Of a DNA stretch of 50,700 nucleotides, positions 2,653 through 50,232 are shown piece by piece. The notes below the pieces were generated by a model that ran no database searches, was not told where the DNA came from, and worked only from the letters and a program-made list of their open reading frames with translations. Within the stretch, counting starts at the first letter, position 1; every line of letters begins with the position of its first letter. The position numbers were made by a program, and so were the translations under genes. Source of the DNA: Nitrosomonas sp. (GTDB taxonomy: Bacteria > Pseudomonadota > Gammaproteobacteria > Burkholderiales > Nitrosomonadaceae); contig JAHBZZ010000023.1 in the NCBI GenBank assembly GCA_019635215.1, positions 1 to 50,700 of the forward strand, written 5' to 3'.

Positions 2653-3036
2653 TCATTCGCCGCAATACGCTGTTACCTGAATTTCGATTTTCATGCGGGG
2701 ATCTGACAAGCCTGCGGTGAGCATCATCGCCGATGGTCTGACATCGCCAAAATATTTGCGCGTGACCGGAAAGCATTTGGGAAAGTCGTCGGCATTCGGT
2801 AGCACGTAGGTTACGCGCACGACATCCTTTAAGCTGCTGTTGGCTTCCTTCAATGCGGCTTCGATATTTTTGAAGCACTGTTCGGTCTGCGTTACCAGAT
2901 CGTCGGATATGGTCATGTTGCTGTAGTCGAATCCGGTGGTGCCGGAAACCAGTACCCAGTCGCCCGCGCGGACTGCGCGGGAATAGCCAATTTCCTGTTC
3001 AAATGTAGAGCCGGAACTGATCAGTTGGCGTGTCAT
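2653..3036 (-). CDS. ridA: RidA family (YjgF/UK114) enamine/imine deaminase
   Basis: A 127-residue protein, the normal length for the RidA/YjgF/UK114 superfamily, whose members hydrolyse reactive enamines and imines such as 2-aminoacrylate released by PLP enzymes, acting as cytosolic trimers. The family pattern is visible: a start region GSTFEQEIGYSRAVRAGDWVLVSGTTGF, the central QTEQCFKNIEAALKEANSSLKDVVRVTYVL, and the C-terminal RPSAMMLTAGLSDPRMKIEIQVTAY with the conserved Arg and the glutamate near the end. The start ATG has AAGGAG 7 bases upstream. It stands alone, between an insertion-element wreck and repeat family 1. Exact substrate within the superfamily is not determinable. Confidence 0.85.
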   Translation of the reverse strand: MTRQLISSGSTFEQEIGYSRAVRAGDWVLVSGTTGFDYSNMTISDDLVTQTEQCFKNIEAALKEANSSLKDVVRVTYVLPNADDFPKCFPVTRKYFGDVRPSAMMLTAGLSDPRMKIEIQVTAYCGE

Positions 3037-3072: not shown

Positions 3073-3540
3073 CTATAGTCTGACCAACTTGTGTTCGATG
3101 GGATTGAAGTCTGGAGAATATGCAGGCAGGTACAAGGATATGTCTCGCGTTTTGTATGGCAGTATGTCCTGTCGTTTATGGAACGTGGTATTGTCCACGA
3201 CAATAACGCAGTGTGACGGCAATTTTAGGTAACAGATCTGTATTACTCATCTATGAAATACATCGGCGTTGATGTTGGCTTCTAACAAATTAACAATGAC
3301 CGGCAGTTTTCCGATCAAGGCGCCTATCGCGTTGATACGGCCTTTCGCGTGCCAGTCATACGACCATCGCATCGTTGACTAATAGGGGCGTAACCGTGCG
3401 TGCGCGGTGTATCGTGCGTAAATCCACTCTCATCGATATAAACAATAACCCGGTTTGTCGCTTCATAGACAGGCAGCGATCTTAAATAGAGCTTAATTTT
3501 CTCTCACGTCGTTCAGCTCAGAGAGAACATTCCGCAATAT
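3073..3540 (-). pseudogene. IS630-family transposase remnant (frameshifts and an internal stop)
   Basis: Translating the minus strand in pieces recovers a DDE transposase of the IS630/Tc1 type: SLPVYEATNRVIVYIDESGF (first catalytic Asp) and THDTPRTHGYAPISQRCDGR from about 3480 to 3361, then after a one-base frame change YDWHAKGRINAIGALIGKLP and VIVNLLEANINADVFHR, a TGA stop near 3252, then the continuing frame with VIVVDNTTFHKRQDI (second Asp) and YLPAYSPDFNPIEH (third acidic residue) down to a stop at 3073-3075. Another frame change occurs near 3500. The N-terminal DNA-binding half is missing. It is dead as written. Confidence 0.8.
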
Positions 3541-3730
3541 ATCGATTGATATCAAGAAGTCAGTAATAAATACTATTTTATTCGGCCATAGAAAATCTTC
3601 TTAAATGCTAGAATATAATGCGTTAGAGTAGTTATTTAGAGTGTAAATGTTTTCATTATTTAATTTAAGCTACATACAGTTATCACCGATATTGAGTCTG
3701 GCATAAGTAACTATATAAATGAGGCAAATC

Positions 3731-6700
3731 ATGATTAAAAATATTCCTGTTTTTTATAAAGATAACGTTCCGTATCGCATAGATACTGATTCTTTAGCCA
3801 TAGCCACGATATCTGATTTGATAACAGTCACAGCATCCAAGTATGAAGACAAAATTGCTGTTAAATATGAAGACCAGCAACTTACCTACAAGGAATTGGA
3901 AATCCGATCAAACAAGCTTGCTTATCGGCTTCGTAAAATGGGTATGGGGCCCGGGAAATTAATAGGTATCTATATAGAGCGATCATTAGACATGATGGTA
4001 GCTTTGCTTGGTACATTGAAAGCAGGCGCTGCTTACATTCCACTTGATCCAGCTTATCCTGCTGACAGGATAAGTTACATGCTCGAAGATTCTGGCTCAA
4101 GATTGGTTTTGACAAAAAGCGCTTTGGTAGATTCACTGCATAATTATTCTGGAGAAACACTGTGTTTAGATTCTGATTGGCAAGCTATAAATCAAGAACT
4201 AGAAACTTCTGTACCTCAGATAGCCGAAGCAAAAGATTTAGCTTATGTTATTTATACTTCTGGTTCTACTGGACGGCCCAAGGGAGTTGAAATTCCTCAT
4301 CGAGCAGTTTTAAATTTTCTTTACAGCATGCGTCAGACACCAGGGATAAATGAGAATGACCGGTTACTGGCTGTCACAACGCTGTCATTCGATATTGCAG
4401 GTTTGGAACTTTATCTTCCACTGACGGTGGGAGCCCAAGTTGTCATTGCCAGCCGCACTTCTGCGGTCGATGGTAATTTGCTTGGTCGCATGATTGAAGA
4501 TCTAGGTATAACTGTCATGCAGGCAACTCCGGCCACATGGCGATTGTTATTAGATTCAAAATGGACGGGAAGCTCAAAGCTGAGGGTTTTTTGCGGCGGT
4601 GAAAGTCTATCATCTGAACTGGCCGAACAACTGCTTCCCAGATGTACTGAACTTTGGAATCTCTACGGGCCAACAGAAACAACCATCTGGTCTACTGTAT
4701 GCCGGATTGAAGATGCCAGAAGTCCGATTTCTATTGGATATCCAATTGCGAATACTGAAATCCAGATTCTGGACGATAAATTACAGCCTGTTGAGACTGG
4801 AGTCCCCGGAGAACTGTATATTGGAGGAATGGGACTCGCCTGTGGATATCATAAACGTGAGGATCTAACCAAAGAACGTTTTATACCACACCCGTTAAAG
4901 CCTAATGAGCGTCTTTATCGTACAGGGGATCTTGCTAGACATTTACCTGATGGATCATTGGAACATATGGGTAGGATCGATTATCAGGTTAAAGTTAGAG
5001 GATTTCGCATTGAATTAGGTGAAATCGAATCGGCTCTGAATCAATTACCAATGGTTAAACAAGCTGTTGTATTGGCGCGCGAAGATGTGCCCGGCGAAAA
5101 GCGCTTGGTAGCCTATGTGATCTATCAATCTTCACAACAATCCACCAGTAAAGTATTACGAGAGGCATTGGCTGCAACGCTTCCTGATTATATGGTGCCA
5201 GGGTTTTATGTGACGATGGATACTTTTCCGTTAACGCCTAATGGCAAGATCGATAGGAATGCATTTCCTGTTCCAGAATCAGGTCGTCCAGAACTGGCCA
5301 CAGAATATCTGGCTCCCCGGAATGATAAAGAATCAACGCTTGTTGATATTTGGTCAAAAGTATTGCGTATCGACAATATTGGAGTCAATGATAATTTCTT
5401 CGATCTAGGTGGTGATTCACTGAAGGTTGCTCAGGTTGCGACTCGAATTCGCGATGATTTCGGTGTTGATGTGGCGTTACGCTTGATTTTTGAGAACTCG
5501 ACAATAGCTGATCTTGCTCAGGCCATTACCGGTTCAGGTGCAAAAAAATTAAATGATCTGCCGTTTAGGAAAGTACCTCGTGATGGTTACATACCGCTGA
5601 CATTTGCACAAGAAAGAGTGTGGTTTTTGCATCAATTAAATCCCAACAATCTTGCATATAACTTTATTTCTACAATAGCATTTAATGGTCATTTGGATGT
5701 TAAAGCGCTAGAAAAATCTCTCGGTGAAATACTGCGGCGTCATGAGAGCTATCGAACAACTTTTCCAACTGTTGCAGGCCGGCCGGGCCAAATAATACAT
5801 CCGGCACCGGATTACAAGCTGAATATTATAGACTTGTCTGATAAACATCCCGATGAGCAGGAAAGAGTAACGGATACATGGAGTCAGGAGGAATATCAGC
5901 ATCGTTTCGATTTAACACAACTTCCATTGGTCAGATGGACGCTTTTCCGTTACAGCGGTATGAAAAATGTACTCGTGCATATGGAGCATCATCTTGTACA
6001 CGATGGCTGGGCATTCAATCTGTTTATTCGAGAGCTTGTTGCTTTATACAATGCATACGCTGCTGGAAAGTCTTCACCTCTCGATGAACCACCAATCCAG
6101 TTAGCAGAATTTGCAACCTGGCAACATGACTGGATGCAAGGTGCTATATCGGATTATCAGTTAGCATATTGGAAGAAAAAATTCAGAACAATCCCGCCGA
6201 TTCTGGAATTGCCTACAAAAGATGCACGTCCGCCTATTCAGACTTTCCGAGGTACTTCCCTAAGACCGGAAATTCCTCTGGATATTTGTAATCGATTACG
6301 TGCGTTGAGCAAAAAAGAAGGCAGTACGTTCTTTATGACTATGCTTGCCGGATTCGTTGCACTGCTGCACCGATATACGGGAGAATCGGATATTGCAATA
6401 GGTACTTTTTTTGCCAATCGGCGGAAAGTCGAGTCAGAAAGTGTTATTGGAATGATACTTAACAACGTTGTGATACGTACTACGTTGGACAAAGATCCCA
6501 CCATACGCGATTTAATTCGTCAGGTTCGCAATATTGTTCTAGAAGACGCATCACATCAAGATGTTCCTTTCGATCGTGTTGTTGAAGCTGTTCAGCCTCA
6601 GCGTGATTTGAGTATGAATCCGTTATTCCAGGTAATGTTCAGTTTTCATGATGAACCCATGCCAGAATCCGGTATGACTAATTTAGATGTCAGTCTGACT

Positions 6701-9514
6701 CCTGTAATTAGCAATGGATCATCGAAATTCGATCTTGGTGTCATTGGCATTCCTCATTCCGCACAAAAACTTGGGTTGCCGCAGGGTTCTGAAAATGACG
6801 GACTCACGATGATTTGGGAACACAATACAGATCTGTTCGATACGTCAACAATTGCTCGCATGGTCGAACACTATAAAATGCTATTGCGAGCGATGGTTAG
6901 CGATCCAGATCAGCATTTATCACAAATTGTTTTAAGTGATGAGAACGAACGCAAGAGAATGCTGATATCGTGGAATAACACAGCTGCTGATCTTGAGTCA
7001 GGTCTGACATTGCATGGGCTCGTAGAGAAAACCTATAAATTGACGCCAGAAGCTGTAGCGATTGTTTTTGAATCTGAGGAAGTAACTTATCGTCAGTTAA
7101 TTCAGCAATCTAATCAATTGGCGAATTATCTGATGCATAAAGGTATACAGCCCAACGCGCTGGTTGGATTATGTGTAGATCGTTCGCCAAGAATGCTGGT
7201 CGCGATGCTGGCCATTATGAAAGCAGGTGCGGCTTATATTCCAATTGATCCGAAGTTTCCGCATGAAAGACAATCATTCATACTGAAAGATGCCGGTGTC
7301 AGTTTTCTGATTACAGAAGGAAATCTTTGCGCCAATTTGTTTACGGAAAAAATAACATTAATTAATTTCGATATTGATGCTGGGGCAATCAATAGTGAAA
7401 ATGTCGAGATGCATAAAGCAGTCAAGGTGGACACAGAAAGCTTGGCTTATGTCATCTATACATCAGGCTCGACTGGAATGCCTAAGGGTGTACAGATTCC
7501 GCATCGAGCGATCGTTAATTTACTCTGCTCCATGCGCAAGAAACCCGGGCTAAGTGCGGATGATCAATTATTGGCTGTGACTACTTTGTCATTTGATATT
7601 GCAGGACTTGAACTTTACTTGCCACTCACAGTAGGTGCCCGTGTAATTATTTGTCCTCGTTCAGTAGCCAGTAATGGAGAAGAGCTTACTGGTTTGTTGG
7701 AAAAAACCGAGGCTACTATGATGCAGGCAACGCCAACGACTTGGCAATTATTAATCGATACCGGGTGGAAAGGTTCTAAAGATATTATCGCACTATGCGG
7801 TGGAGAGGCGTTTCCGTCGTCACTTGCTGAGCAATTATTACCCTTAGTAAAAGAATTGTGGAATATGTACGGCCCAACAGAAACTACTGTATGGTCTACG
7901 ATATATAAAGTCGAATCAGTTGATGGAGCAATACCGATTGGTCGCCCCATTGACAATACAAAAATTTTTTTACTGGATCAGTATAACAATATCGTTCCAC
8001 CCGGGATTATTGGCGAATTATGTATTGGTGGTTTGGGCCTTTCTTGTGGCTACTTAAATCGACCCGAGCTGACGAGCGAAAAATTTATCAGTAATCCGAT
8101 CAAAGAAGAAGCCGGAAACAAGATATTTAAAACGGGGGATTTGGCGCGTTTTAAAGCAGATGGTACATTAGAGTGCCTAGGTAGAATTGATCATCAAATC
8201 AAATTACGCGGATTTAGGATTGAATTAGGTGAAATTGAATCATTAATCGAGAAATTGAATGGAATCAAGCAGTCAGTAGTTATTGCACGTGAAGATATAC
8301 CTGGCGATAAACGCCTTGTGGCTTACGTGGTTGTATCAGACGAGAGCGCGAGAAATTCAAATCAGATAATAGCGCAGCTGAAGAATCACTTGCCAGATTA
8401 TATGTTACCAAGTATTTGCGTTTTTCTGGATACGATACCATTGACGCCAAATGGAAAGATCGATAGAAAAGCACTTCCCGTTCCGAGTGGCCAAGAGCGG
8501 ATAGGAAAAAGTAATTCTTATGTTGCGCCTCGGAATGATCTCGAAATAACGCTTGTCGGTATATGGGAAAAAATTCTGGGTGTGTCTCCCATCGGCGTAC
8601 GTGATGATTTCTTTGACGTAGGTGGCCATTCATTACTGGCTGTTCGCCTGACTTCTAAAATAGAAGAAGAAATTGGCAAACGTATTTCACTTGCTGCGCT
8701 TTTACAAGGGCGTACGATTGAGTATGTCGCTAGTACATTGATTGGTGACGACAAGAATATTGCATTATCAAGTTTTATCCCTCACAGAACCACCGGTGGG
8801 AAAATACCATTTTTTGCAGCTGGTAGTCATCCTAAGTATGCAGAAATACCGCAACGTCTTGGAGAAGATCAGCCTTTTTATCAACTGGATTTGTATGCTT
8901 TACTCACAGAGCGCATGGAAAAAGGACTAAAGCCTTTTACCTGTATTGAAGAATTTGCTGAATATTATATTCAGCAAATTTTGGATGTTTGTCCACATGG
9001 TCCATATAATCTAGGTGGTGGTTGCGAAGGAGCTTATCTCGCATATGAAATGGCGGTGCGTCTACAAGAGATGGGCCATGAGATTGGAGCGCTTGTTATG
9101 TGGATACCGCCTGCTCTGCGTGAATCAAAAGGCATCAGTCTGCGGCGCTTTGCTATTTTTTTGTCACTGGAACGTTTACGCTATTTGATCACGAACGGCT
9201 CCCTATCTAAATCAAATTGGCATGCATTGCGAGTGTTGGCAAAACACGAACTGCTGGAATATCGTATCAATCAAGCATTATGCTCTTATGCGCCATCTAA
9301 ACACTTCCACGGTAAAATTACACTTATTCGAACATCGGAAAGCCCGTTCGTGTCCCGCGTAGACATTAATCGGCCTTGGATTGATCGAGCAACTGAAGGA
9401 GGTTCAGTTCATATAGTGAAGGGCAATCATGGCAATTGGCTATACAATAATCTTGACGATTTTGTTGACATTATCGATAAAGGCTTGGGTAACAACCATA
9501 CAAAACGGTATTAA
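3731..9514 (+). CDS. Two-module non-ribosomal peptide synthetase, A-T-C-A-T-TE
   Basis: A 1927-residue NRPS. ATG 3731 is preferred over ATG 3719 because TGAGG at 3720-3724 is correctly spaced before it. Order: A1 (~25-515; P-loop-like YTSGSTGRPKG ~175), T1 (LGGDSL, phosphopantetheine Ser563), C (~585-1010; HHLVHDG at 753-759, all key residues present), A2 (~1060-1590; YTSGSTGMPKG from 1243), T2 (VGGHSL, Ser1634), TE (~1675-1925). Residues at the Stachelhaus positions read by eye as DILQFGLIW (A1) and DILQLGMVW (A2), both close to the glycine code DILQLGLIW, so Gly-Gly or a derivative is the inferred product. The TE nucleophile motif is GGGCEG (Cys1765) instead of GxSxG; His1900 in GNHGN fits the catalytic His. 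No phosphopantetheinyl transferase or tailoring enzyme is adjacent. A TATAAT box lies at 3614-3619, with no convincing -35. Confidence 0.93.
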   Translation: MIKNIPVFYKDNVPYRIDTDSLAIATISDLITVTASKYEDKIAVKYEDQQLTYKELEIRSNKLAYRLRKMGMGPGKLIGIYIERSLDMMVALLGTLKAGAAYIPLDPAYPADRISYMLEDSGSRLVLTKSALVDSLHNYSGETLCLDSDWQAINQELETSVPQIAEAKDLAYVIYTSGSTGRPKGVEIPHRAVLNFLYSMRQTPGINENDRLLAVTTLSFDIAGLELYLPLTVGAQVVIASRTSAVDGNLLGRMIEDLGITVMQATPATWRLLLDSKWTGSSKLRVFCGGESLSSELAEQLLPRCTELWNLYGPTETTIWSTVCRIEDARSPISIGYPIANTEIQILDDKLQPVETGVPGELYIGGMGLACGYHKREDLTKERFIPHPLKPNERLYRTGDLARHLPDGSLEHMGRIDYQVKVRGFRIELGEIESALNQLPMVKQAVVLAREDVPGEKRLVAYVIYQSSQQSTSKVLREALAATLPDYMVPGFYVTMDTFPLTPNGKIDRNAFPVPESGRPELATEYLAPRNDKESTLVDIWSKVLRIDNIGVNDNFFDLGGDSLKVAQVATRIRDDFGVDVALRLIFENSTIADLAQAITGSGAKKLNDLPFRKVPRDGYIPLTFAQERVWFLHQLNPNNLAYNFISTIAFNGHLDVKALEKSLGEILRRHESYRTTFPTVAGRPGQIIHPAPDYKLNIIDLSDKHPDEQERVTDTWSQEEYQHRFDLTQLPLVRWTLFRYSGMKNVLVHMEHHLVHDGWAFNLFIRELVALYNAYAAGKSSPLDEPPIQLAEFATWQHDWMQGAISDYQLAYWKKKFRTIPPILELPTKDARPPIQTFRGTSLRPEIPLDICNRLRALSKKEGSTFFMTMLAGFVALLHRYTGESDIAIGTFFANRRKVESESVIGMILNNVVIRTTLDKDPTIRDLIRQVRNIVLEDASHQDVPFDRVVEAVQPQRDLSMNPLFQVMFSFHDEPMPESGMTNLDVSLTPVISNGSSKFDLGVIGIPHSAQKLGLPQGSENDGLTMIWEHNTDLFDTSTIARMVEHYKMLLRAMVSDPDQHLSQIVLSDENERKRMLISWNNTAADLESGLTLHGLVEKTYKLTPEAVAIVFESEEVTYRQLIQQSNQLANYLMHKGIQPNALVGLCVDRSPRMLVAMLAIMKAGAAYIPIDPKFPHERQSFILKDAGVSFLITEGNLCANLFTEKITLINFDIDAGAINSENVEMHKAVKVDTESLAYVIYTSGSTGMPKGVQIPHRAIVNLLCSMRKKPGLSADDQLLAVTTLSFDIAGLELYLPLTVGARVIICPRSVASNGEELTGLLEKTEATMMQATPTTWQLLIDTGWKGSKDIIALCGGEAFPSSLAEQLLPLVKELWNMYGPTETTVWSTIYKVESVDGAIPIGRPIDNTKIFLLDQYNNIVPPGIIGELCIGGLGLSCGYLNRPELTSEKFISNPIKEEAGNKIFKTGDLARFKADGTLECLGRIDHQIKLRGFRIELGEIESLIEKLNGIKQSVVIAREDIPGDKRLVAYVVVSDESARNSNQIIAQLKNHLPDYMLPSICVFLDTIPLTPNGKIDRKALPVPSGQERIGKSNSYVAPRNDLEITLVGIWEKILGVSPIGVRDDFFDVGGHSLLAVRLTSKIEEEIGKRISLAALLQGRTIEYVASTLIGDDKNIALSSFIPHRTTGGKIPFFAAGSHPKYAEIPQRLGEDQPFYQLDLYALLTERMEKGLKPFTCIEEFAEYYIQQILDVCPHGPYNLGGGCEGAYLAYEMAVRLQEMGHEIGALVMWIPPALRESKGISLRRFAIFLSLERLRYLITNGSLSKSNWHALRVLAKHELLEYRINQALCSYAPSKHFHGKITLIRTSESPFVSRVDINRPWIDRATEGGSVHIVKGNHGNWLYNNLDDFVDIIDKGLGNNHTKRY

Positions 9515-9645: not shown

Positions 9646-9697
9646 ATATAGCACAGCTCACAGCTGCATAATTATGCAGCTGTGAGCTGTGCTATAT
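9646..9697. repeat. Perfect 52-bp palindrome downstream of the NRPS
   Basis: The 24 bases 9646-9669 are the exact reverse complement of 9674-9697, and the four bases between (AATT) are themselves palindromic. The RNA would form a near-uninterrupted 24-bp hairpin; it could terminate NRPS transcription in either direction, although no T-run follows (next bases are CTCAAAG). Alternatively it is a protein-binding or mobile repeat. The rest of 9515-10064 holds no convincing gene. Confidence 0.85.
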
Positions 9698-10009: not shown

Positions 10010-10064
10010 CTCTGATTTGGTTTTGAAGTTTCCAGACGGTTTCTAAGTTTCTGAATGTCAGTTA

Positions 10065-10730
10065 ATGCTTGAGTTACATCATCTCCATAAATCTTATGCC
10101 GCAGGGCATCAGGTATTGTCCGATATATCTTATTGCCTTAAATCGGGTGAGTATGTTGCCATCATGGGCGATTCCGGTGTGGGTAAATCAACGTTGCTTA
10201 ATCTTATTGCAGGTTTAGACGTGCCTGATTCGGGTGAAGTGTTAATTGATGGCACTGTGATTTCAGCGCTAAATGACGAAGAAGCAACGTTGCTGCGGAG
10301 AAAAGAATTGGGTTTTATTTTTCAGGAATTTCACGTCCTATCGCATTTGACGTTAAATCAGAATGTTGCATTGCCTTTGTTATTGAATGATTTGCCCGTT
10401 GACCGCGCGGAGGTTCTTCTGGCTGAAGTAGGTTTGCAGGGACGCGAAAATGATTTTCCCCGTCAACTGTCGGGAGGGGAATTGCAGCGTGTAGCCATAG
10501 CGCGTGCTCTGGTTCATCGACCGAAGCTTGTGCTGGCTGATGAGCCTACGGGCAACCTGGATCCGGATACTGCGAACGAGATTTTGCAGTTGATACGCCG
10601 GGAAATTAAGAAAAATGGTGCGTCCGGTATTTTAGTGACGCATTCCCGAGTGGCAGCGTCCACCGCAGATTACGTGCTGACATTGACAAAACACGGTCTG
10701 CAACCGGCGGAGATCATTACAGATCCATGA
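10065..10730 (+). CDS. ABC transporter ATP-binding protein, LolD/FtsE type
   Basis: A 221-residue ATPase subunit of the MacB/LolD/FtsE group, which drives lipoprotein or small-molecule export or mechanotransmission rather than uptake. Walker A is GDSGVGKST (~36-44), the Q-loop lies in FIFQEFHVLSHLT, the signature is LSGGELQRVAIARA (~137-150), Walker B is LVLADEPT, and the H-loop His is in VTHS. Its stop codon overlaps the permease start by 4 bases (ATGA), so the two are translationally coupled. The start has only a weak ribosome site. The ATPase-permease-AttH set resembles att-type operons described in Agrobacterium; the cargo is unknown. Confidence 0.88.
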   Translation: MLELHHLHKSYAAGHQVLSDISYCLKSGEYVAIMGDSGVGKSTLLNLIAGLDVPDSGEVLIDGTVISALNDEEATLLRRKELGFIFQEFHVLSHLTLNQNVALPLLLNDLPVDRAEVLLAEVGLQGRENDFPRQLSGGELQRVAIARALVHRPKLVLADEPTGNLDPDTANEILQLIRREIKKNGASGILVTHSRVAASTADYVLTLTKHGLQPAEIITDP

Positions 10731-13276
10731 AGATGGTGCGGCTATTTTGCTGGTTACTGCAAGGTGAATGGCGCGCCCGATTTGTACAGATCATTGTTGC
10801 GGTGATTGCGATTGCGATGGGTGTGGCATTGGGGTTCTCGATTCACTTAATCAATACGGCAGCGCTGAATGAATTTTCAGCTGCAAATAAAAGCCTCTCG
10901 GGTCAATCGGATGTGCAGGTTTATGGCAAGCAAGGTTTTTTTGATGAGACCGTTTATCCGAAGTTGGCACAATATGAAGGCGTTAAACTGGTAAATCCGG
11001 TATTGGAATTTACAGCAACGGTGTCAGCCGAGTTTGAAAATCGGGATGATCATAAACTGAAAATACTCGGTATTGATGTATTACGTGCGGCAGATATTTC
11101 TCCCGATTTGTTGGGCGTTCCGGGTGAGGGCCGGTCGATGGATAGCTTTGCTGATGATGCAATCTTTTTGTCACCTGCCGCGATGGAATGGTTGGGTCTC
11201 GAGCAGGGTGACATGCTGTATTTTAATGTGGGCCTGGAGACCATCGCACTGCGTGTGGCTGGCGGCCTTACCCGGGCGCATGCTGGCCAGCGTATTGCTG
11301 TCATGGATATAGGCGCAGCACAATGGCGATTTCAGTATCTTGGGTTGCTCTCGAGGATTGAGCTTAAGTTGGAGTCCAATATTCATCATGAAGCTTTTAA
11401 AGTAAAACTGGGGAATGAACTCGGCGAGCAATTTTATGTTTCTGAAATTGCAGATCAGGAAGTGCGTATCGCCAATATGTCACGTGCTTATCGGGTCAAT
11501 TTGAATATGCTGGCGTTGGTAGCGCTTTTCACTGGCTCGTTTCTTGTATTTTCAACCCAGGCGTTGTCGGTTATCCGCCGCCGTCGCCAGTTTACATTAT
11601 TACGTGTGCTGGGATATACCCGGCGGCAGCTGTTGCTGCAGATTCTTACCGAAGGTTTCGTGCTTGGCACCATAGGCGCTTTGTTTGGATTGGCGATTGG
11701 ATATGGTTGTGCTGTTCTTGCAATCAATCTGCTGAGCGGGGATTGGGGCAGTTATATTTTTCCTGGTATACAACCAAGTATCTTTTTCAGTCTGCAGAAT
11801 GCTGCCCTGTTTTTTATGATCGGGCTAGGTGTTACTGTGCTGGGCGCGACTCTGCCCGCTCGAGAGGTTGTCAGTGCAAATCAAGCCAGTGCGCTTAAAT
11901 CGGGTGGTGAGGACAGCACAATGAATCGTGTGCAGCGATCGCGCTCTGCATGGGTTTGTTTGTTTTCCGGTGTTCTGTTGACACAATTACCCCCGGTTTA
12001 TGAATTACCTGTTTTGGGTTATATGGCCATTGCTTTGCTGCTGATTGGCGGTATTGCACTGATGCCTGGCTTGGCAAAATTGGTTTTTTCCTTTTTACAG
12101 AAGTATGTGAGCCGCTATTCCAAAAATGTCATTATTCTGATGACCGTTGCGCGCCAGGCTAATGCGCCGAATCAGGCTTCAATTGCACTGAGCGGGGTGC
12201 TGGCAAGTTTCAGTCTGATCGTGGCAATGGCCATTATGGTGCTGAGTTTTAGGGTATCAGTGGATCAGTGGCTGGATCATGTTTTACCTGCAGATTTATA
12301 TGTACGCGTTGCTGATAGTGGTGTGCAAGGGGGATTCCAAAAGGAAGAACAAAATGCAATCAATAGTTTGCCCGGTTTTTCCCGCACTGATTTTTTTCGT
12401 GTTCAGCAATTGACGCTGAATCCGGATCGTCCGGAAATTACATTGATTGCGCGGCCGATTGACGCGGTTGAGCCGGGTAACACATTGCCTTTAACCGACG
12501 ATGCGAGAGGATTGGATCAACTGCCCAAAGGCGCCATACCGTTATGGGTATCGGAGGCGATGGTTGATTTATACGGCTACGCTGTGGGCGAGAAGGTAAT
12601 GATCCCGATGGGAAATATGTGGTATGAATTCCAGGTTGCGGGTGTGTGGCGGGATTATGGCCGGCAATTTGGTGCGGTACAAATGCAATTGTCTGATTAT
12701 CAGACGCTGACCAGCGATTTCAGTATTAACTCAGTAGCCTTATGGTTGGATACTGAAACGACAATGACCGAAGCTTTGGTGGCGCTGCAACAGCTGCCGT
12801 TCAGCAATGTATTGGAGATTACGCAATCGCAACATATGCGGGAGTCGAGTCTGGCCATTTTTGATCGCAGTTTTGCCATTACTTATGTATTGGAAGTTGT
12901 TGCTGTAATCATTGGCTTGTTAGGTGTCGCAGCGAGTTTCTCGGCGCAGATGCTGGCTCGGGTAAAAGAGTTTAGTATGTTACGGCATATTGGCGTAACG
13001 CAATCCCAGATTAAGCGCATGCTCGCTGCGGAAGGTTGTTTTCTGACGGCTTTTGGTGTGGTATTGGGGTTTGTGCTTGGTTTGGGCATCAGTTTAATTT
13101 TGATTTTTATTGTAAATCCGCAGTCTTTTCATTGGACGATGCAGCTTTACATGCCGTGGAACTGGCTTTTGTTGATATCGGGCGTGATGCTTGTCAGCGC
13201 TTCACTGACCGCCTGGCTTTCCGGTCGGAACGTGGTAAGCGATGGCGTAATCCGTGCGGTACGGGAGGATTGGTGA
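10727..13276 (+). CDS. FtsX/MacB-type ABC transporter permease, duplicated domain
   Basis: An 849-residue inner-membrane permease with two FtsX-like modules. The N-terminal helix (~15-40) is followed by a large periplasmic domain (~45-255), three helices around 258-385, a central helical pair (~405-455), a further N-terminal-type helix (~490-515), a second periplasmic domain (~520-715) and a final three-helix bundle (~725-840). This is the layout of permeases that extract lipids, lipoproteins or hydrophobic compounds from the membrane. It overlaps its ATPase by 4 bases and the following AttH-like gene by 4 bases (GTGA), so the three are one operon. Being just downstream of the NRPS it could export that product, but this is only inference. 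Confidence 0.87.
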   Translation: MKMVRLFCWLLQGEWRARFVQIIVAVIAIAMGVALGFSIHLINTAALNEFSAANKSLSGQSDVQVYGKQGFFDETVYPKLAQYEGVKLVNPVLEFTATVSAEFENRDDHKLKILGIDVLRAADISPDLLGVPGEGRSMDSFADDAIFLSPAAMEWLGLEQGDMLYFNVGLETIALRVAGGLTRAHAGQRIAVMDIGAAQWRFQYLGLLSRIELKLESNIHHEAFKVKLGNELGEQFYVSEIADQEVRIANMSRAYRVNLNMLALVALFTGSFLVFSTQALSVIRRRRQFTLLRVLGYTRRQLLLQILTEGFVLGTIGALFGLAIGYGCAVLAINLLSGDWGSYIFPGIQPSIFFSLQNAALFFMIGLGVTVLGATLPAREVVSANQASALKSGGEDSTMNRVQRSRSAWVCLFSGVLLTQLPPVYELPVLGYMAIALLLIGGIALMPGLAKLVFSFLQKYVSRYSKNVIILMTVARQANAPNQASIALSGVLASFSLIVAMAIMVLSFRVSVDQWLDHVLPADLYVRVADSGVQGGFQKEEQNAINSLPGFSRTDFFRVQQLTLNPDRPEITLIARPIDAVEPGNTLPLTDDARGLDQLPKGAIPLWVSEAMVDLYGYAVGEKVMIPMGNMWYEFQVAGVWRDYGRQFGAVQMQLSDYQTLTSDFSINSVALWLDTETTMTEALVALQQLPFSNVLEITQSQHMRESSLAIFDRSFAITYVLEVVAVIIGLLGVAASFSAQMLARVKEFSMLRHIGVTQSQIKRMLAAEGCFLTAFGVVLGFVLGLGISLILIFIVNPQSFHWTMQLYMPWNWLLLISGVMLVSASLTAWLSGRNVVSDGVIRAVREDW

Positions 13277-14379
13277 TCCCCCTTTTTTTTAATCAAAATG
13301 GAGTTTCCTGGCTTTTCCTGCTGATTATTTTGTGGCCGTCAATATCCGTGTCACAGGAGGCTGTCCAAGGCAATCGGTTCGCAAAAGTTTCGACCGGTTA
13401 TACACTGGTATTTCCACGGGATTATGGTGCGCATCCCGATTTTCGTATCGAATGGTGGTATGTGACCGGTTGGCTGGAAACCGATGATAAAAAGACTCTG
13501 GGTTTTCAGGTTACTTTTTTTCGTTCTTCTACCGGCCATCATCCCGAGAATCCGAGTCAATTTGCACCAAAGCAGTTAATTATTGCACATGCTGCGCTAT
13601 CAGACCCGTCCGTTGGGCGACTGATATACGGTGAAAAGTCTGCGCGTACGGGATTCGATCTGGCTTATGCTAAAGAGGGTGATACAAATGTCAAACTCGA
13701 CGATTGGTATTTCGTCCGTGATGCGGATGGGCATTACCAAACTAAGATAAACGCTGAAAAGTTCGGTATGCAACTTTCATTGATACCAACGCAAAAAATG
13801 ATACTGCAAGGCGAACATGGTTTTTCCCGTAAAGGGCCGAATGTTGAACAAGCGAGTTATTATTACAGCGAACCTCATCTAAAAGTAGCCGGGACCATTA
13901 AACATCAAGGTAAAACCTTAGCCGTAAACGGCCATGCCTGGCTTGATCATGAATGGTCTTCCGAACTATTGGATTCCCGGGCGGATGGCTGGGACTGGGT
14001 TAGTATGAATCTGTTTGATGGTTCATCACTTATGGCTTTCCAGATTCGCGGTAAGGATGGTGCAAAACTCTGGGCTTATGCCAAATTTCGGAACGCCGCT
14101 GGTGAGGTGCGATTTTTTGATCCGGAACAGATTGAATTTATACCGGAGCGCGTTTGGCAATCGCCGCATACCAATGCAGTTTATCCCGTTGAAATGCGTA
14201 TCCGTACGGGAGAAATTGAATGGCGGTTGATCCCGTTTTTTGATGATCAGGAACTGGATTCACGTCGTACTACGGGTGCGGTGTATTGGGAAGGCGCAGT
14301 CAGGATTTTCAAAGAGCATCAGCCGGCCGGGCAAGGTTATCTCGAGTTGACCGGATATGAAAGCGCATTAGATTTGTAA
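13273..14379 (+). CDS. attH: Exported AttH/CrtC-type lipocalin-like protein
   Basis: The likely start is GTG 13273, overlapping the permease stop and preceded by GGGAGG at ~13263-13268; earlier in-frame starts would run deep inside the permease gene. The 368-residue product opens with a hydrophobic signal (VSWLFLLIILWPSISVSQ) and contains the CrtC/AttH lipocalin-like double barrel: FRIEWWYVTGWLETDDKKTLGFQVTFFRS near the start, KFGMQLSL and QGEHGFSRKGP in the first domain, and AWLDHEWSSELL...GWDWVSMNLFDGSSLMAFQ in the second. Family members include carotenoid 1,2-hydratases, but the predicted exported location and ABC partner suggest a periplasmic or outer-membrane-side binding protein for a hydrophobic ligand. 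No enzymatic function is claimed. Confidence 0.82.
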   Translation: MIPLFFNQNGVSWLFLLIILWPSISVSQEAVQGNRFAKVSTGYTLVFPRDYGAHPDFRIEWWYVTGWLETDDKKTLGFQVTFFRSSTGHHPENPSQFAPKQLIIAHAALSDPSVGRLIYGEKSARTGFDLAYAKEGDTNVKLDDWYFVRDADGHYQTKINAEKFGMQLSLIPTQKMILQGEHGFSRKGPNVEQASYYYSEPHLKVAGTIKHQGKTLAVNGHAWLDHEWSSELLDSRADGWDWVSMNLFDGSSLMAFQIRGKDGAKLWAYAKFRNAAGEVRFFDPEQIEFIPERVWQSPHTNAVYPVEMRIRTGEIEWRLIPFFDDQELDSRRTTGAVYWEGAVRIFKEHQPAGQGYLELTGYESALDL

Positions 14380-14613
14380 AATGATTTGTTTGGTTTATAA
14401 TCATCTAATTACAATCTAAACTTAAAAAAGTAATTTAACTTTATTCTTTGTAAATTCGAAAAAACATTGTTTTCAGATGACTATTTTGAAAATGGCACAG
14501 TCACCTGAATGATTAGAATGTGAGAAGTTAAGATGTTTACGCACGAATTGTGCTCGGCGCGGCCACAGTTTGATATTGATGACGTGACCATAATTTTTAG
14601 AGAGGATAATTCA

Positions 14614-15927
14614 ATGTTTGCTCTGATACAAACAGGAAGAAAATGTTTTTTTGCACTCATTGTATTGTTGCTGCTGAGTTTTGTCCCAGTTAGCCAGACA
14701 TGGGCCAATTCACGTTACGCTTCGATCGTGATAGATGCCAATACGGGTGAAGTGCTGCATGAATCGAATGCAAATGCGAGCCGCTATCCGGCTTCCTTAA
14801 CCAAGATGATGACGCTCTATATGTTGTTTGAAGCCATAGAGCGAAAAAAAATGAACCTGAATACGCAAATGCCGGTATCTGCGCATGCTGCATCTATGCC
14901 ACAGACGAATATTGGTTTGCGTGCAGGGGAAACACTGAGTGTACGAGATGCCATTTCTGCGCTAATCGTGCGTTCCGCGAATGATGCTGCGGCGGTTGTG
15001 GCCGAAGCACTCGGTAATACGGAATCCAACTTTGGTACTATGATGACGCAAAAAGCGCGTCAATTAGGCATGACTGCGACGACTTTTCGTAATGCATCCG
15101 GTTTGCCAAACAGCGCGCAGAAAACAACCGCGCGTGATATGGCGAGGCTGTCATCTCGGTTGATGAAAGATTTTCCTCAGTATTATCATTATTTCTCCAC
15201 ACCATCGTTTCGCTACAAAGGAAGAACATACAATAGCCATAATCGAATGGTACGAAACACCCAGGGCGTGGATGGACTGAAGACCGGTTTCATAAGGGCT
15301 TCTGGGTTTAATGTTGCAACCTCGGCAAAGCGCAATAACAGGAGGGTTATTGCGGTAGTCATGGGGGGTAACACAGCTGCGGCGCGTGATCAGCATGTAG
15401 CTCAGTTATTGGATCGCAGTTTTAATCAAATTGCTTCAAGGGTTGCATCAAGACCAGTAAATAGAAATCAGAATGCTGGAAAGATGATTGCCAAAGCGCC
15501 GATTCCGGTTGCGAAACCATCAATTGTCTTAGCACGTGCAAATCCAGATCCTGCTGCAATTCTTCGTGGTGAAATACCACCGTCATCGAATCATTCAGGG
15601 GGTTATGTCACACCAGCATCGTTTGTTGTTCCTGCTGTCTCGGCGCCTAGGATCACTCAAGTCACTCAAAGTGTGCCGCAGGCGGCGCATCATGACAGCT
15701 GGGCGGTTCAGATTGGCTCATATCATGAGCCAGACCGCGCGCATGCACAGGCACGTGCTGCAACCCGCTGGGTAGCGGGCGAAGTGGCGGTAGTGGAAGT
15801 TGAAATCAGCAATCGCACCGTATATCGCGCCAGATTGATCGGTTTCCAGAAAAAACAGGCGCATACCGTTTGTCAGAATTTGTCACGTCAGGGAATGGAT
15901 TGCCTGGTTGTGCGTTCGCATGGCTAA
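14614..15927 (+). CDS. D-alanyl-D-alanine carboxypeptidase with C-terminal SPOR domain
   Basis: The start ATG 14614 follows AGAGAGG and begins a clear signal peptide (CFFALIVLLLLSFVPVSQTWA), so the in-frame upstream ATG at 14533 is rejected. The 437-residue protein has the three penicillin-binding motifs of low-molecular-weight PBPs: SLTK (Ser61, Lys64), SAN (Ser121, Asn123) and KTG (223-225). It trims the terminal D-Ala from peptidoglycan pentapeptides. Residues ~370-437 (SWAVQIGSYHE... to ...MDCLVVRS) form a SPOR domain, which binds denuded glycan at the division site, replacing the usual DacA-type beta domain and amphipathic anchor. This suggests septum-directed activity. It is monocistronic. 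Confidence 0.88.
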   Translation: MFALIQTGRKCFFALIVLLLLSFVPVSQTWANSRYASIVIDANTGEVLHESNANASRYPASLTKMMTLYMLFEAIERKKMNLNTQMPVSAHAASMPQTNIGLRAGETLSVRDAISALIVRSANDAAAVVAEALGNTESNFGTMMTQKARQLGMTATTFRNASGLPNSAQKTTARDMARLSSRLMKDFPQYYHYFSTPSFRYKGRTYNSHNRMVRNTQGVDGLKTGFIRASGFNVATSAKRNNRRVIAVVMGGNTAAARDQHVAQLLDRSFNQIASRVASRPVNRNQNAGKMIAKAPIPVAKPSIVLARANPDPAAILRGEIPPSSNHSGGYVTPASFVVPAVSAPRITQVTQSVPQAAHHDSWAVQIGSYHEPDRAHAQARAATRWVAGEVAVVEVEISNRTVYRARLIGFQKKQAHTVCQNLSRQGMDCLVVRSHG

Positions 15928-45070: not shown

Positions 45071-45555
45071 GATTCAAAAATCTCCTTCAATGGTCTTTCG
45101 TAACGTTGCTTGATTGTTGCGACGAGTGCATCGGGATCTGTTTCATTCAGTGCATGTATCAGCAGAGTGCTGCGATCCGTCGAGAGCCGCGCCGACAGGG
45201 TGCCGGGCGTTAAAGTCACGCTGCTGGCCAGCAGGCTGATCGCGAGATCGGAGGTCAAATCCAGCGGCAGTTTGACAAACACGGGTGTCAGTTTATCCGG
45301 GTTGCCGAGAATCAGCCGCGCAACGGTGAAATTGGATACCACAATGTCATACAAAAATATGGCGCCAAAACGCAGCAGAGTCATCGGTTTGCGAATGACC
45401 GCTTTTTCCGGCCAGAAGCGGATTGTCAGCACCGGTATGATCCAGCCCAGTAGAAAACCGAGCAGAATGTGACCCGGCTCGATACTGTTGTTCAGCAGCA
45501 GCCATATGCCTGTAAGCACGGGTGTCAGCAAAGGATGCGGTAACAGCCGGGTCAT
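45064..45555 (-). CDS. mnhE: Mrp antiporter subunit E
   Basis: A 163-residue subunit: two N-terminal helices (PVLTGIWLLLNNSIEPGHILLGFLLGWIIPV), then a cytosolic domain with the family motif SVTLTPGTLSARLSTDRSTLLIHAL. It overlaps mnhD by 4 bases. Confidence 0.94.
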   Translation of the reverse strand: MTRLLPHPLLTPVLTGIWLLLNNSIEPGHILLGFLLGWIIPVLTIRFWPEKAVIRKPMTLLRFGAIFLYDIVVSNFTVARLILGNPDKLTPVFVKLPLDLTSDLAISLLASSVTLTPGTLSARLSTDRSTLLIHALNETDPDALVATIKQRYERPLKEIFESC

Positions 45556-47096
45556 GGTTGGATGACCTCCATGTGCAGTACCGATTTGATATACGTTTCG
45601 GGGTGCAGCAATTGATTTGCGATGGCGGCGGTGTAGTCGGTAACCGTTCCGGCGAAAATTACCAGACCGATACAGAATAATAACAGGCCGACAACCGGTG
45701 TCAGTTCTCCGGTTACGGATAGTACGCTGCGTGGTTTATTGATATCAGGATTGACGTTACCGGTATGCGGTTCCTGTGTGCGGTAAAACAGCATGCTGCC
45801 GCTGCGTGCCAGTGCAATGAGTGTGAACAGGCTGGTGACCAGTATGACGCCCATGATCCAGGGCAAATCCGGATGATGTAAGGCGGCGTTCAGGATCAGG
45901 AATTTACCGATGAAGCCCGATAAAGGCGGTAAGCCGGCGATCAGTATCGCGGTGATAAAAAACAGACTGCCCAGCAAGCGTTGTTGCTGGATAACCGGAC
46001 CGGGTTCAAACTGATCGTCCATGATATGACGCCGTTGAGCGATGCTGTCGGACAATAGAAAGAAGGCCGCTGCCGCAAAGGTCGAGTGCGGCAGATAATA
46101 CAATGCGGCGGTAATGCCCGCGGCTGAATTGATGCCGGTTGCCGTCAGCAATGTGCCGATGGAAGCGATCACCAGATAAGCTATCTGCTGGCGTAACCGG
46201 GTGCTGGCGAGAACGCCGAGAACGCCGATAATCAGTGTCAGTATGGCCATGGGCAGCAGCCATGTTTCGGTTAAATTGGCTGCAATGCCTGCCTGAGTGC
46301 CAAAGATCAGGGTATAAACGCGCAAAATGCTGTATGCGCCGACTTTCGTCATAATCGCAAATAATGCGGCAACCGCCGCCGTGGTGTGTGCATAAGCTGC
46401 TGGCAGCCATAAATAAAGCGGCACCAGCGCGGCTTTCAGGGAAAAAACGGCAAATAGCAGTAAACCGGCGATATGGATCAGCACCACGTCATCCGCAGGC
46501 GCGGCAGCCACTTTTACCGCCAGATCGGCCATATTAAGCGTTCCGAGCAGGCCATACAGTGTTCCTACTGCAAACAGAAACAGTGTCGAGCCGACCAGAT
46601 TGATGGTGACAAAATGCAGGCCGGCCTTGGTTCTCAAACGGCCGCCACCGTGCAGCAGCAGGCTGTACGACGCGAGCAGCAGGATTTCAAAAAACACAAA
46701 CAGGTTAAACAGATCGCCGGTGAGAAAAGCGCCGTTCAGGCCGAATAGCTGCAGCTGAAACAAAGTATGGAAATGCGCGCCGTTGCTGTCCGAGCCACGC
46801 GAGGCATAGAACAACGCGCAGATGGCGACGAGCGCAGTGATCGTCAGCATCCATACCGCCAGCCGGTCGGCGACCAGCACAATACCGAAAGGCGGTACCC
46901 AGTTACCTAACGCATAAACCAGAATTTCGCCGTTGCTGACTGTGTTTAACAGAACAACTGCGGTAATGATTTGCAATACGACTGAAATCAGACTGGCGGC
47001 ACGTTTCAACGGTAATTGACGGCCGGGCAGTAACAGCAGGGCAATACCTGCCAGCAGCGGCAACAGCACGGGAAAAATAGCGATATGGTTGATCAT
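45552..47096 (-). CDS. mnhD: Mrp antiporter subunit D
   Basis: A 514-residue, ~14-helix subunit of the NuoN/NuoM proton-channel family, including the helix Lys and Glu residues of that family (FFEILLLASYSLLLHGG, FSLKAALVPLYLWLPAAYAHTTAAVAALFAIMTKVGAYSILR). With MnhA it carries the ion paths of the antiporter. It overlaps mnhC and mnhE by 4 bases each. Confidence 0.95.
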   Translation of the reverse strand: MINHIAIFPVLLPLLAGIALLLLPGRQLPLKRAASLISVVLQIITAVVLLNTVSNGEILVYALGNWVPPFGIVLVADRLAVWMLTITALVAICALFYASRGSDSNGAHFHTLFQLQLFGLNGAFLTGDLFNLFVFFEILLLASYSLLLHGGGRLRTKAGLHFVTINLVGSTLFLFAVGTLYGLLGTLNMADLAVKVAAAPADDVVLIHIAGLLLFAVFSLKAALVPLYLWLPAAYAHTTAAVAALFAIMTKVGAYSILRVYTLIFGTQAGIAANLTETWLLPMAILTLIIGVLGVLASTRLRQQIAYLVIASIGTLLTATGINSAAGITAALYYLPHSTFAAAAFFLLSDSIAQRRHIMDDQFEPGPVIQQQRLLGSLFFITAILIAGLPPLSGFIGKFLILNAALHHPDLPWIMGVILVTSLFTLIALARSGSMLFYRTQEPHTGNVNPDINKPRSVLSVTGELTPVVGLLLFCIGLVIFAGTVTDYTAAIANQLLHPETYIKSVLHMEVIQP

Positions 47097-47422
47097 GGTT
47101 TGTGCTTGCCGTCCACGTGATCGTTACCCATTTCAGAAAATGCTTTCAATGCCAGTACAATGACAAAAGCCGTCATCCCAAAACTGATGACAATCGCCGT
47201 CAATACCAGCGCCTGCGGCAAGGGATCGGCATACCGGGAGATGCCATCGGCGATGATGGGGGGCGCGCCAATAGTTAACCGTCCCATGACCAGCAGGAAC
47301 AGATTCACAGCATACGATAAAAAGGTCAATCCCAGTACAACAGGAAATGTGCGCCCGCGCAGTGACAGATAAATGCCACTTGCCGTCAGTACGCCTATGA
47401 TTACAGCAATCAGCAGTTCCAT
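47093..47422 (-). CDS. mnhC: Mrp antiporter subunit C
   Basis: A 109-residue, three-helix subunit homologous to NuoK (GIYLSLRGRTFPVVLGLTFLSYAVNLFLLVMG, then DPLPQALVLTAIVISFGMTAFVIVLAL). It overlaps the mnhA stop by one base and mnhD by 4. Confidence 0.95.
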   Translation of the reverse strand: MELLIAVIIGVLTASGIYLSLRGRTFPVVLGLTFLSYAVNLFLLVMGRLTIGAPPIIADGISRYADPLPQALVLTAIVISFGMTAFVIVLALKAFSEMGNDHVDGKHKP

Positions 47423-50232
47423 CAGCGTATCCGCTTTCTGACGTTCACCGGATGGTTGTGGTGATGCACCAGCCCCAGGTGAACCAAAATGAGTAATGTG
47501 GCGCCGACAACGACGAGATAAACGCCCAGATCGAATGCCATCGCAGACGCCAGTTCAAATTCGCCGATAACCGGCCAACGGATGTGACTGAATGCCGATG
47601 TCAGGAAAGGATAGCCAAAAAACCAGCTTGCCAGTCCTGTAGCCGTGGCAATCAGCAGGCCGTAACCGATAATGGCATGCAGATTGAAGGGGATGCGTTC
47701 CTGAGTCCAGACAACGCCGTTGGCAAGGTATTGCATGACCAGTGCGACAGCAGTAATTAAACCGGCGATAAAGCCGCCGCCGGGTAAATTATGGCCGCGC
47801 AGCAGGATAAATAATGATACCAGCAGCGCCAACGGCAGCAGCAGGCGCGCAAAAGAAGCCATGATGACCGGATGCCTGTCCGTGTCCCATGTGCGCCCCT
47901 GGCTGTCATGACGGGATCCTGTCAGTTTCAGGTGCTCCAGCATGGCGTAGATGCCGAGGCCGGCCAATCCCAGTACGGTGATTTCACCCAGCGTATCATA
48001 ACCCCTGAAATCGACCAGAATCACATTCACAACATTGGTGCCACCGCCGTCGGGCAGGCTGTGTTCCAGAAAATAGTCGGCAATGGTTTCATAAGGCCGT
48101 GTCAATACCGCCCAAACCAGAAGCGCCACGCCGCCGCCGGCTGCGGAAGCAATGACCGCATCCCGACTGCGCAGCCATTTGCCCGATTCATTTGGAGATT
48201 CCTGCGGTAGGAAATATAAAGCCAGCAGCATCAGCACGATGGTGACCACTTCGACGGAGATCTGCGTTAGAGCCAGATCGGGTGCGGAAAATTTCACGAA
48301 AATCAGCGATATGCCCAGTCCTACGGTGCCTAATAAAATGAGTGAGACAAGCCGTTGCCGGTGCATGACGGCAGTCGCCACAGCGGCAATCACGATAATC
48401 AGCGCAACCAACAGGCTGACGCCATCAACCGGTAAAATGGCGCGTTCTCCGGTCAGGTGGTAATCGGTATCCATAGCCGACAGGCCGAGTGCCAGGATAA
48501 ACAGCATAAATATCAATATCATGCGCTGCAGCGATTGTTTGTCCAGAAAATGGGTAACGGTATTGGCGAGATAAAACAGTTTTGTCAGAAACAGTTCATA
48601 CAGGGTCTTGAAGCTCAGCCATTCCAGCCGCTCCTGCAGCGCGAATAACGGTCTGCGGATCAGGTAGAAAAGCACACCGCCAGCCAATGCAGTGATGCTC
48701 ATGTATAAAGCGGTATTAAAGCCATGCCAGATCGCTAGATCATGCTCCGGAACAGGGCCCTGCAGAACGCCGGATGCTGCGACGGACAGAATGGGTTCAA
48801 CAGTGAACGCCGGAAAAATGCCCACCAGCAGGCACAGCGCGACCAGAATTTCAATCGGTACTTTCATCCAGCGCGGCGGTTCATGCGGTTGTTTGGGCAA
48901 ATCGGGGGATATTTCACCAAAAAAAACGTTGTGAATAAACCGCAGGGAATAGGCCACGGCAAATATTCCGGCTAGTGTCGCTGTTGCCGGCAGCAACCAC
49001 CCCCAGGGTTGGTCGGTGACCGATAAGGTTTCGGCAAAGAACATTTCCTTGGACAGAAAGCCGTTGAACAACGGTACGCCCGCCATGGATGCCGTCGCGA
49101 CCATTGCGAGTAAACCGGTATACGGCATGTATTTCCACAAGCCGCTCAGTATGCGCATATCGCGTGTGCCCGTTTCATGATGAATAATGCCGGCAGCCAT
49201 GAACAATGAAGCTTTGAAAATCGCGTGGTTGATAATATGGAAAGTACCGGCAAGTGCGGCCATGGGCGTGCCAATACCGAACAGCAGCGTGATCAGACCC
49301 AGGTGGCTGATGGTGGAATAAGCCAGTAAGCCTTTCAGATCATGCTTGAATATCGCAATATAGGCGGCGACAACCAGTGTTACCGCGCCGGTGATACAAA
49401 CCAGCCAGAACCATGCCGATGTGCCTGATAATGCCGGAAATAACCGCGCCAGCAGAAAAACACCGGCCTTGACCATGGTAGCCGAATGCAGATAGGCGGA
49501 AACCGGCGTCGGCGCCGCCATCGCGTTGGGCAACCAGAAATGGAATGGAAACTGAGCCGACTTGGTAAATGCACCCAGTAATACCAGAATCAGCATGGGC
49601 AGATACAAGTCGTGTGCGCGGATCAGATCGCCGGATGCCAGAATATCCGTCAGATTATAGCTGCCGACGATATCGCCCAGCAGGATAAATCCGCCCAGTA
49701 ACGCCAGTCCGCCGCCGCCGGTGATGGCCAAGGCCATGCGCGCACCCATGCGTGATTCATGGCGTGTCTGCCAGTAGCTGATCAGCAGGAATGATGACAG
49801 GCTGGTTAATTCCCAGAAAATCAGCAATTGAATGATATTTTCGGATGTGGCGATGCCCAGCATGGAACCCATGAACATCAGCAGGTACGCATAAAAGCGC
49901 CCCATGTTATCGCGCTCGGACAGATAATAACGCGCGTAAAGAATGATCAGCAGACCGATGCACAGGATCAGAAGCACGAATAAAAGCCCCAGCCCATCCA
50001 GACGGAAGGCAAGATCTAACCCTAAACCTGATGCCGGCAGCGGAATCCAGCTGATGCTTTGCACCACGACCTGACCTGAAAAAGCCCCGGTGATGAACGG
50101 CAATAGGAAAGCCAGTGCGATCAAGGTGATCAGACCCGCTCCCCAGGCGGCGTACAGACGCCCCATGTGTGAAATTGCCGCGACTAAAGCAGCGCCCAGG
50201 AACGGCGTTAACGCAATGAGCGATAAATGCAT
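47422..50232 (-). CDS. mnhA: Mrp antiporter subunit A/B fusion
   Basis: A 936-residue subunit. The N-terminal ~500 residues are the NuoL-like MnhA proton-channel part ([55 protein letters not shown]); then an MbhD/E-like stretch (~610-770); the C-terminal ~135 residues (~800-936) are MnhB ([30 protein letters not shown]). Fused A and B is common in proteobacteria. As first gene it leads mnhA(B)CDEFG, a complete Na+/H+ antiporter that keeps cytosolic sodium and pH low at the cost of proton motive force. No clear ribosome site precedes the ATG. Confidence 0.95.

Follow-up and report, generated by a model that had tools for sequence, protein, structure and literature searches.

The locus analysed here raises the question of what a nonribosomal peptide synthetase (NRPS) with two modules of predicted glycine specificity might make in a Nitrosomonas, presumably an ammonia oxidizer, and whether this enzyme works alone, as the initial annotation had proposed. 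The window, that is, the whole stretch of DNA that was analysed, is one entire contig (C16) of 50,700 bases, from an assembly of 3.39 Mb in 46 contigs that is 99.96% complete.

Results

Organization of the synthetase and its predicted substrates

The NRPS gene occupies an intact open reading frame of 1,931 codons (1931 aa) on the plus strand, at 3719..9514, which runs in a single frame. The in-frame ATG at 3731 is its likeliest start, as the N-termini of the orthologues described below align with the Met at this position. Pfam recognized two each of the AMP-binding and PP-binding domains, plus a single Condensation and a single Thioesterase domain, and their positions yield the order A-T-C-A-T-TE. 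Both the two-module order and the start at 3731, as initially annotated, were thus borne out. The features of the gene are the following:

3731..9514, plus strand: two-module NRPS gene, A-T-C-A-T-TE (the longest frame starts at 3719; the orthologues favour ATG 3731)
3830..5248, plus strand: A1, code DILQFGLIW (DILQYGLIW in the orthologues), glycine predicted
5336..5527, plus strand: T1 carrier, serine of GGDSL present
5588..6961, plus strand: condensation domain, HHLVHDG motif intact
7028..8476, plus strand: A2, code DILQLGMVW (the two aligned orthologues have the same letters), glycine predicted
8540..8740, plus strand: T2 carrier, serine of GGHSL present, borders approximate
8816..9481, plus strand: thioesterase domain, Cys nucleophile

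The A, T and C core motifs of a modular NRPS are in working order in this gene. The statement that all catalytic motifs were intact stood for the HHLVHDG of the condensation domain, the GGDSL and GGHSL of the carriers and the A10 lysines, but not for the thioesterase (TE), which has Cys1769 instead of Ser and Ile1796 at position I.

The code read-out comprised 17 adenylation-type domains (the two of the window, the A1 domains of the two orthologues and 13 from the other NRPS contigs of the genome), which were aligned and read at the nine pocket positions; the motif used did not capture A2 of either orthologue and may have passed over A domains elsewhere in the genome, and the A2 codes of the orthologues were taken from their protein alignment. 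A1 reads DILQFGLIW and A2 DILQLGMVW, each with its A10 lysine, and the A1 code is DILQYGLIW in both orthologues. The DILQ pattern was present in the four window and orthologue domains of the read-out and in one of the 13 other domains (DILQLGVIW); the remaining 12 had differing codes, among them DVWHISLID, DFWNIGMVH and DLTKVGHVG, which we take to be of the serine, threonine and aspartate types. One of the 13 (DMGGFGCLF) lacks the A10 lysine; it is probably an acyl-AMP ligase, and such a read-out is meaningless for that kind of enzyme.

A1 matched the PDB entry 5u89_A (474.8 bits), presumably a fragment of DhbF, whose starter is DHB. The glycine domain in the first module of DhbF, from the bacillibactin pathway, carries the code DILQVGLIWK, one letter off that of A1; unlike the enzyme studied here, DhbF is described as having two C-A-T modules followed by a TE, the second module being for threonine (PMC4169593). 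The A2 code is one letter off DILQLGMIWK, reported for four glycine domains (PMC12283262). For NcmB (DILQLGVI; PMC5466765) and for a diperamycin domain (DILQVGWV; PMC10888640), glycine was predicted from the code, and the prediction is reported to agree with the product. Because the A1 and A2 codes lie so near to reported glycine codes, the glycine prediction is good for both domains, which likely use this amino acid. At the code level, this upheld the initial prediction of two glycines; the exact string DILQLGLIW, cited there as the published code, was not found in the literature searched.

Three other contigs of the genome carry another 19 condensation domains, namely three on C2, 12 on C23 and four on C26 (L016, L018-L021); therefore the gene at 3731..9514 is not the only NRPS of this organism. 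The codes DSALIAEVW and DVWHISLID were common to C2 and C26, and a glycine-type code was seen in one module of C23.

A cysteine thioesterase without the position-I acid

The residues of the TE discussed here are encoded as follows:

9023..9025, plus strand: Cys1769, presumed nucleophile (GGCEG)
9104..9106, plus strand: Ile1796, at position I, a position held by Asp in 17 of the 19 other TEs aligned
9338..9340, plus strand: Glu1874, candidate position-II acid, 30 residues before His1904
9428..9430, plus strand: His1904 (GNHGNWL), presumed catalytic His

All three orthologues, the window copy included, have Cys as the nucleophile and Ile at position I; this is therefore not a canonical Ser-Asp-His TE. 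The comparison set consisted of 19 non-orthologous TEs, which were query matches from the fetched loci and not a random sample, with rows shorter than 200 residues and duplicates left out. Position I was Asp in 17 of them, Glu in one (L012) and neither in one (L038, itself a Cys TE). A Cys nucleophile was also present in six of the 19 and is, taken alone, unremarkable. Glu1874 is invariant in the three orthologues, always 30 residues before the His, and could serve as the position-II acid, judging from this alignment. The same column holds Glu in five of the 19 other TEs, four of which also have the position-I Asp; the rows of L012 and L013 stop short of the position-II block or are gapped within it. 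An AlphaFold model of the TE built from three close orthologues had a pLDDT of 49.3, too poor to place Glu1874.

Among the NRPS TEs with structures considered in PMC11298585, the acid is located after strand 7 (position II) only in ObiF1 and SulM, both of which have Cys and make small products, while the AB3403 TE combines Cys with an acid at position I. The TE studied here resembles those of ObiF1 and SulM in its Cys nucleophile, in the absence of the position-I Asp and in a small predicted product. The spacing is also the same, the acid being 30 residues before the His in ObiF1 (Asp1254/His1284), in SulM (Asp2926/His2956) and, if the candidate Glu is the acid, here (Glu1874/His1904). On the other hand, SulM has Gln-Cys-Asn where our TE has Gly-Cys-Glu, and the ObiF1 and SulM enzymes close a beta-lactone or a beta-lactam on a beta-substituted residue. 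As glycine has no beta substituent, formation of either ring would not be expected from Gly-Gly.

Within the genus, the TEs of L012 and L013 (from G018 and G046) have a Cys elbow (GNCQA and GYCSG, respectively) and are weakly similar to the TE studied here. In one other genus, carrier-TE proteins with a Cys nucleophile (GMCLG) were seen, by eye, beside a PPTase-like gene (L051, L052 and L053). These proteins of 355-356 aa were rejected as kin, as they show a partial TE likeness and the Cys but keep the position-I Asp; their surroundings are, by eye, exopolysaccharide export and PKS-like genes.

Orthologues and their neighbouring genes

A search with the TE gave strong matches in three of 85 Nitrosomonas genomes (that of the window, G064 and G048) and weak ones in two more; a family sample of 125 genomes added four further matches, all weak. 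The check proposed at the outset, for the same domain order in other Nitrosomonadaceae, thus returned the orthologues of G064 and G048, which are 81 and 78% identical to the window NRPS, and otherwise weak matches.

In both relatives the NRPS gene is directly preceded, on the same strand, by a gene for an AsnB-type amidotransferase and directly followed, also on the same strand, by one for a phosphopantetheinyl transferase (PPTase). The amidotransferase was found at E <= 1e-80 in these two of the 85 genus genomes. Its GATase and Asn_synthase domains scored above their cut-offs, TIGR01536 gave 386.8 bits (cut-off 267.1), and the motifs MCGIFG (N-terminal Cys glutaminase), SGGVDSS and SGEGSDE are kept. 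Two more specific identities were discarded, N-acetylglutaminylglutamine amidotransferase (258.1 bits, far under the cut-off of 570.1) and XrtA amidotransferase (268.7 bits, far under 816.9). Scored against this neighbour, E. coli AsnB (1ct9) gave 164.9 bits and the hydroxyamidotransferase 7ylz, which we take to be TsnB9, 130.9 bits. Between G064 and G048 the AsnB-type proteins are 78.1% identical and the PPTases 51.3%, so the link of the PPTase to the set is looser. The arrangement was seen at these two loci only, and the G048 locus is on a contig of 20.6 kb from an assembly that is 6% contaminated. PADLOC (anti-phage systems) gave no match for the NRPS nor for the amidotransferase.

The description of the NRPS as stand-alone and without tailoring genes consequently applies to the window and not to the two other loci, where the AsnB-type gene and the PPTase gene adjoin it; the relatives do not bear out the idea of a dedicated synthetase that lacks tailoring. 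The AsnB-type neighbour hints at a modified rather than a plain two-glycine product.

A few kilobases from the G048 cluster (L015:12511-17672), what appears by eye to be a Mrp-type antiporter operon was seen; the Mrp-type genes of the window, at 45552-50232, are far from the NRPS.

Wider searches were made in a class sample of 369 genomes and a phylum sample of 398, neither of which had G064 or G048 among its matching rows. Each gave seven genomes at E <= 1e-12, the window's own included, and the best other matches were 3.5e-17 and 9.6e-23, respectively; therefore neither sample holds a match of orthologue grade. A contig scan with two 7-residue patterns returned 80 matching stretches and, as relatives, G064 and G048; with only two such patterns, diverged kin would be missed. 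NRPS matches in 2,857 plasmid records were all below 60% identity among the matches listed, and 13 of the 15 records inspected were annotated as NRPS, PKS or adenylation proteins. A class-sample match to the AsnB-type protein at E <= 1e-100 (one of 274 genomes, 36% identity) was set aside, since it lies on a 10 kb contig where no NRPS was seen by eye. In the literature on bimodular and dipeptide nonribosomal peptide synthetases, glycylglycine was absent among the matches listed.

The window copy and its surroundings

No orthologue of the AsnB-type partner was found in the window genome, which has only distant AsnB kin (best 32% identity). A PPTase family search of this genome gave three genes. 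The frame of 139 aa is of AcpS size; those of 299 and 220 aa are of Sfp size and not orthologous to the cluster PPTase, tblastn finding nothing below E 0.1. The NRPS gene itself is not decaying: against G064, pN was 0.108 and pS 0.659, the latter near saturation, and the dN branch of the window copy (0.062) is not faster than the other two (0.055 and 0.077). That this copy has persisted with no amidotransferase, and on a branch that is not accelerated, speaks against a partner that is indispensable.

The following features flank the gene:

3076..3452, minus strand: decayed DDE_3 transposase pieces, 3076-3216 (34.1 bits) and 3327-3452 (22.7 bits, under the 28.6 cut-off)
9646..9697, no strand: perfect palindrome of 52 bp with no spacer, just downstream of the NRPS and ahead of the transporter block
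10058..15926, plus strand: block colinear with G039 at 78.8% DNA identity, the NRPS lying outside it

The NRPS thus sits between a decayed transposase, presumably of the IS630 type, and the transporter block. The permease next to it is present in all 41 genus genomes of at least 95 completeness and in G064 and G048; the G039 protein is the closest of the 41 (84% identity), and the LolD-type neighbour of the permease was found in all four relatives checked. Left of the break at 10058, G039 has other genes, and the window has the NRPS, the palindrome and the decayed transposase. The simplest explanation is that an insertion or a rearrangement took place here; the palindrome may mark the end of an insertion, act as a terminator or be left by assembly. 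As regards a recent transfer of the NRPS, divergence from G064 in terms of pS was 0.659 for this gene and 0.760 for the permease, both near saturation.

Positions 1-2090 have about 70% GC and a Solibacter-type C-terminal domain (TIGR03437, 195.4 bits), and the GC content drops from 61% to 45% between adjoining 100-base bins at 2100. No second copy of this piece was found in the assembly, and it is probably a foreign piece joined in assembly; for this reason an assembly error at the NRPS spot is possible too. A Rid-family (imine/enamine deaminase) gene lies upstream at 2653-3036, minus strand, with no tblastn copy in the four syntenic relative loci compared. Neither the tRNA scan nor the Rfam scan (gathering threshold) of the whole window gave a match.

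Discussion

As a tentative explanation, which we rate at somewhat less than even, we propose that the AsnB-type amidotransferase, the NRPS and the PPTase form a small gene set, sporadic in Nitrosomonas, and that the NRPS makes and releases Gly-Gly, to be amidated in the relatives and left as the free dipeptide or its cyclic form in the window genome. One glycine would be loaded on each of T1 and T2 and the condensation domain would join the two, steps that would follow from established NRPS logic. The Cys of the TE would then take over the dipeptide, and water would release Gly-Gly, a step in which our confidence is moderate. In the complete sets, the PPTase would arm the carrier domains and the AsnB-type enzyme would activate the carboxylate of the released dipeptide and add glutamine-derived ammonia, giving the Gly-Gly amide. 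In the window genome, activation of the carriers would have to fall to one of the other PPTases, and Gly-Gly would end up free or cyclized.

Our confidence in the amidation, suggested by the gene neighbourhood and, loosely, by KnmC, is weak to moderate. KnmC is an asparagine-synthase-type enzyme tied to an NRPS pathway, that of karnamicin, and thereby a partial precedent for the neighbour of the relatives; its step yields an amide. It is described as acting after chain release, in a step called transamination, and its knock-out abolishes karnamicin (PMC9838390).

If this explanation is right, an ammonia oxidizer invests a 1,900-residue enzyme and ATP in the smallest possible dipeptide, for which the AsnB-type neighbour in the relatives offers a direct, testable chemistry. 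In addition, a Cys TE without the position-I acid would release a product for which a strained ring is impossible; such a release, if real, would imply that the Cys and the missing acid need not mean a beta-lactam or a beta-lactone. Against our explanation, the two TEs of known structure most like this one in make-up both form strained rings.

The fate of the dipeptide on the TE may differ from simple hydrolysis. The initial annotation had suggested a diketopiperazine, a glycylglycine carrier intermediate or a metal ligand as possible products. A Gly-Gly thioester with a free amine cyclizes easily, as dipeptidyl thioesters with a free amine are prone to do, and the Cys TE might release the diketopiperazine cyclo(Gly-Gly), the AsnB-type neighbour acting on something else. 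The likeness to the ring-forming ObiF and SulM TEs, in the Cys and the lack of the position-I Asp, is in line with this, as is the persistence of the window copy without AsnB. However, a special TE would not be needed for cyclo(Gly-Gly), and with the ring closed the AsnB-type enzyme, present beside the other two of the three copies, would find no carboxylate to work on. Given the ease of the cyclization, the ring is as plausible as our preferred product; as a complete account of the locus, with the neighbour left aside, we regard it as unlikely. Instead of water, the TE could also use an acceptor with an amine or hydroxyl group for Gly-Gly, for instance a surface polysaccharide. Changing the catalytic Cys of ObiF to Ser is reported to give mainly hydrolysis (PMC6668435), a polysaccharide deacetylase gene lies beside the G048 cluster, and a surface-carbohydrate match, far under its cut-off (21.8 of 125 bits), lies beside that of G064. 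Yet the two loci do not have the same carbohydrate genes, and the ORF lists, inspected by eye, held no acceptor or transport gene common to both, which leaves such a transfer quite unlikely.

Other explanations concern the window copy alone. Its contig may be misassembled around the NRPS, with the partners present in the organism but outside the assembly; the foreign look of the first ~2.1 kb and the start of G039 synteny only at 10058 agree with this. We nevertheless consider it improbable in so complete an assembly, as the stretch at 2.1-3.7 kb holds the IS remnant and tblastn there with both amidotransferases gave nothing, even at E <= 10. Slightly less probable still is an NRPS gene left over from an old insertion and without a product. 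The window genome yielded no orthologue of the amidotransferase or of the PPTase, the upstream transposase is decayed, and the NRPS is absent from G039, the closest of the 41 genomes searched by the neighbouring permease; against this, the frame is full-length, the core motifs are kept, pN/pS is low, the branch is not faster, and two further PPTase genes of Sfp size are available.

A bolder alternative to the amide concerns the Nitrosomonas with the complete set. Hydroxylamine is the central intermediate of ammonia oxidation, and the AsnB-type enzyme might conceivably place it on Gly-Gly via glutamyl hydroxamate, giving glycylglycine hydroxamate. The idea derives from TsnB9, a relative of the neighbour amidotransferase, which was annotated as an amidotransferase but is reported to take the hydroxylamine that it transfers from glutamic acid monohydroxamate (PMC11160463, PMC13418202). 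We rate it as highly improbable: by score the neighbour is closer to plain AsnB than to 7ylz, and no genes like the amidooxygenase that feeds TsnB9 were seen beside it in the ORF lists, by eye. If true, glycylglycine hydroxamate would be a minimal metal ligand, or a hydroxylamine sink, made from an intermediate of the cell's own nitrification. With only three genes, the set could be expressed whole.
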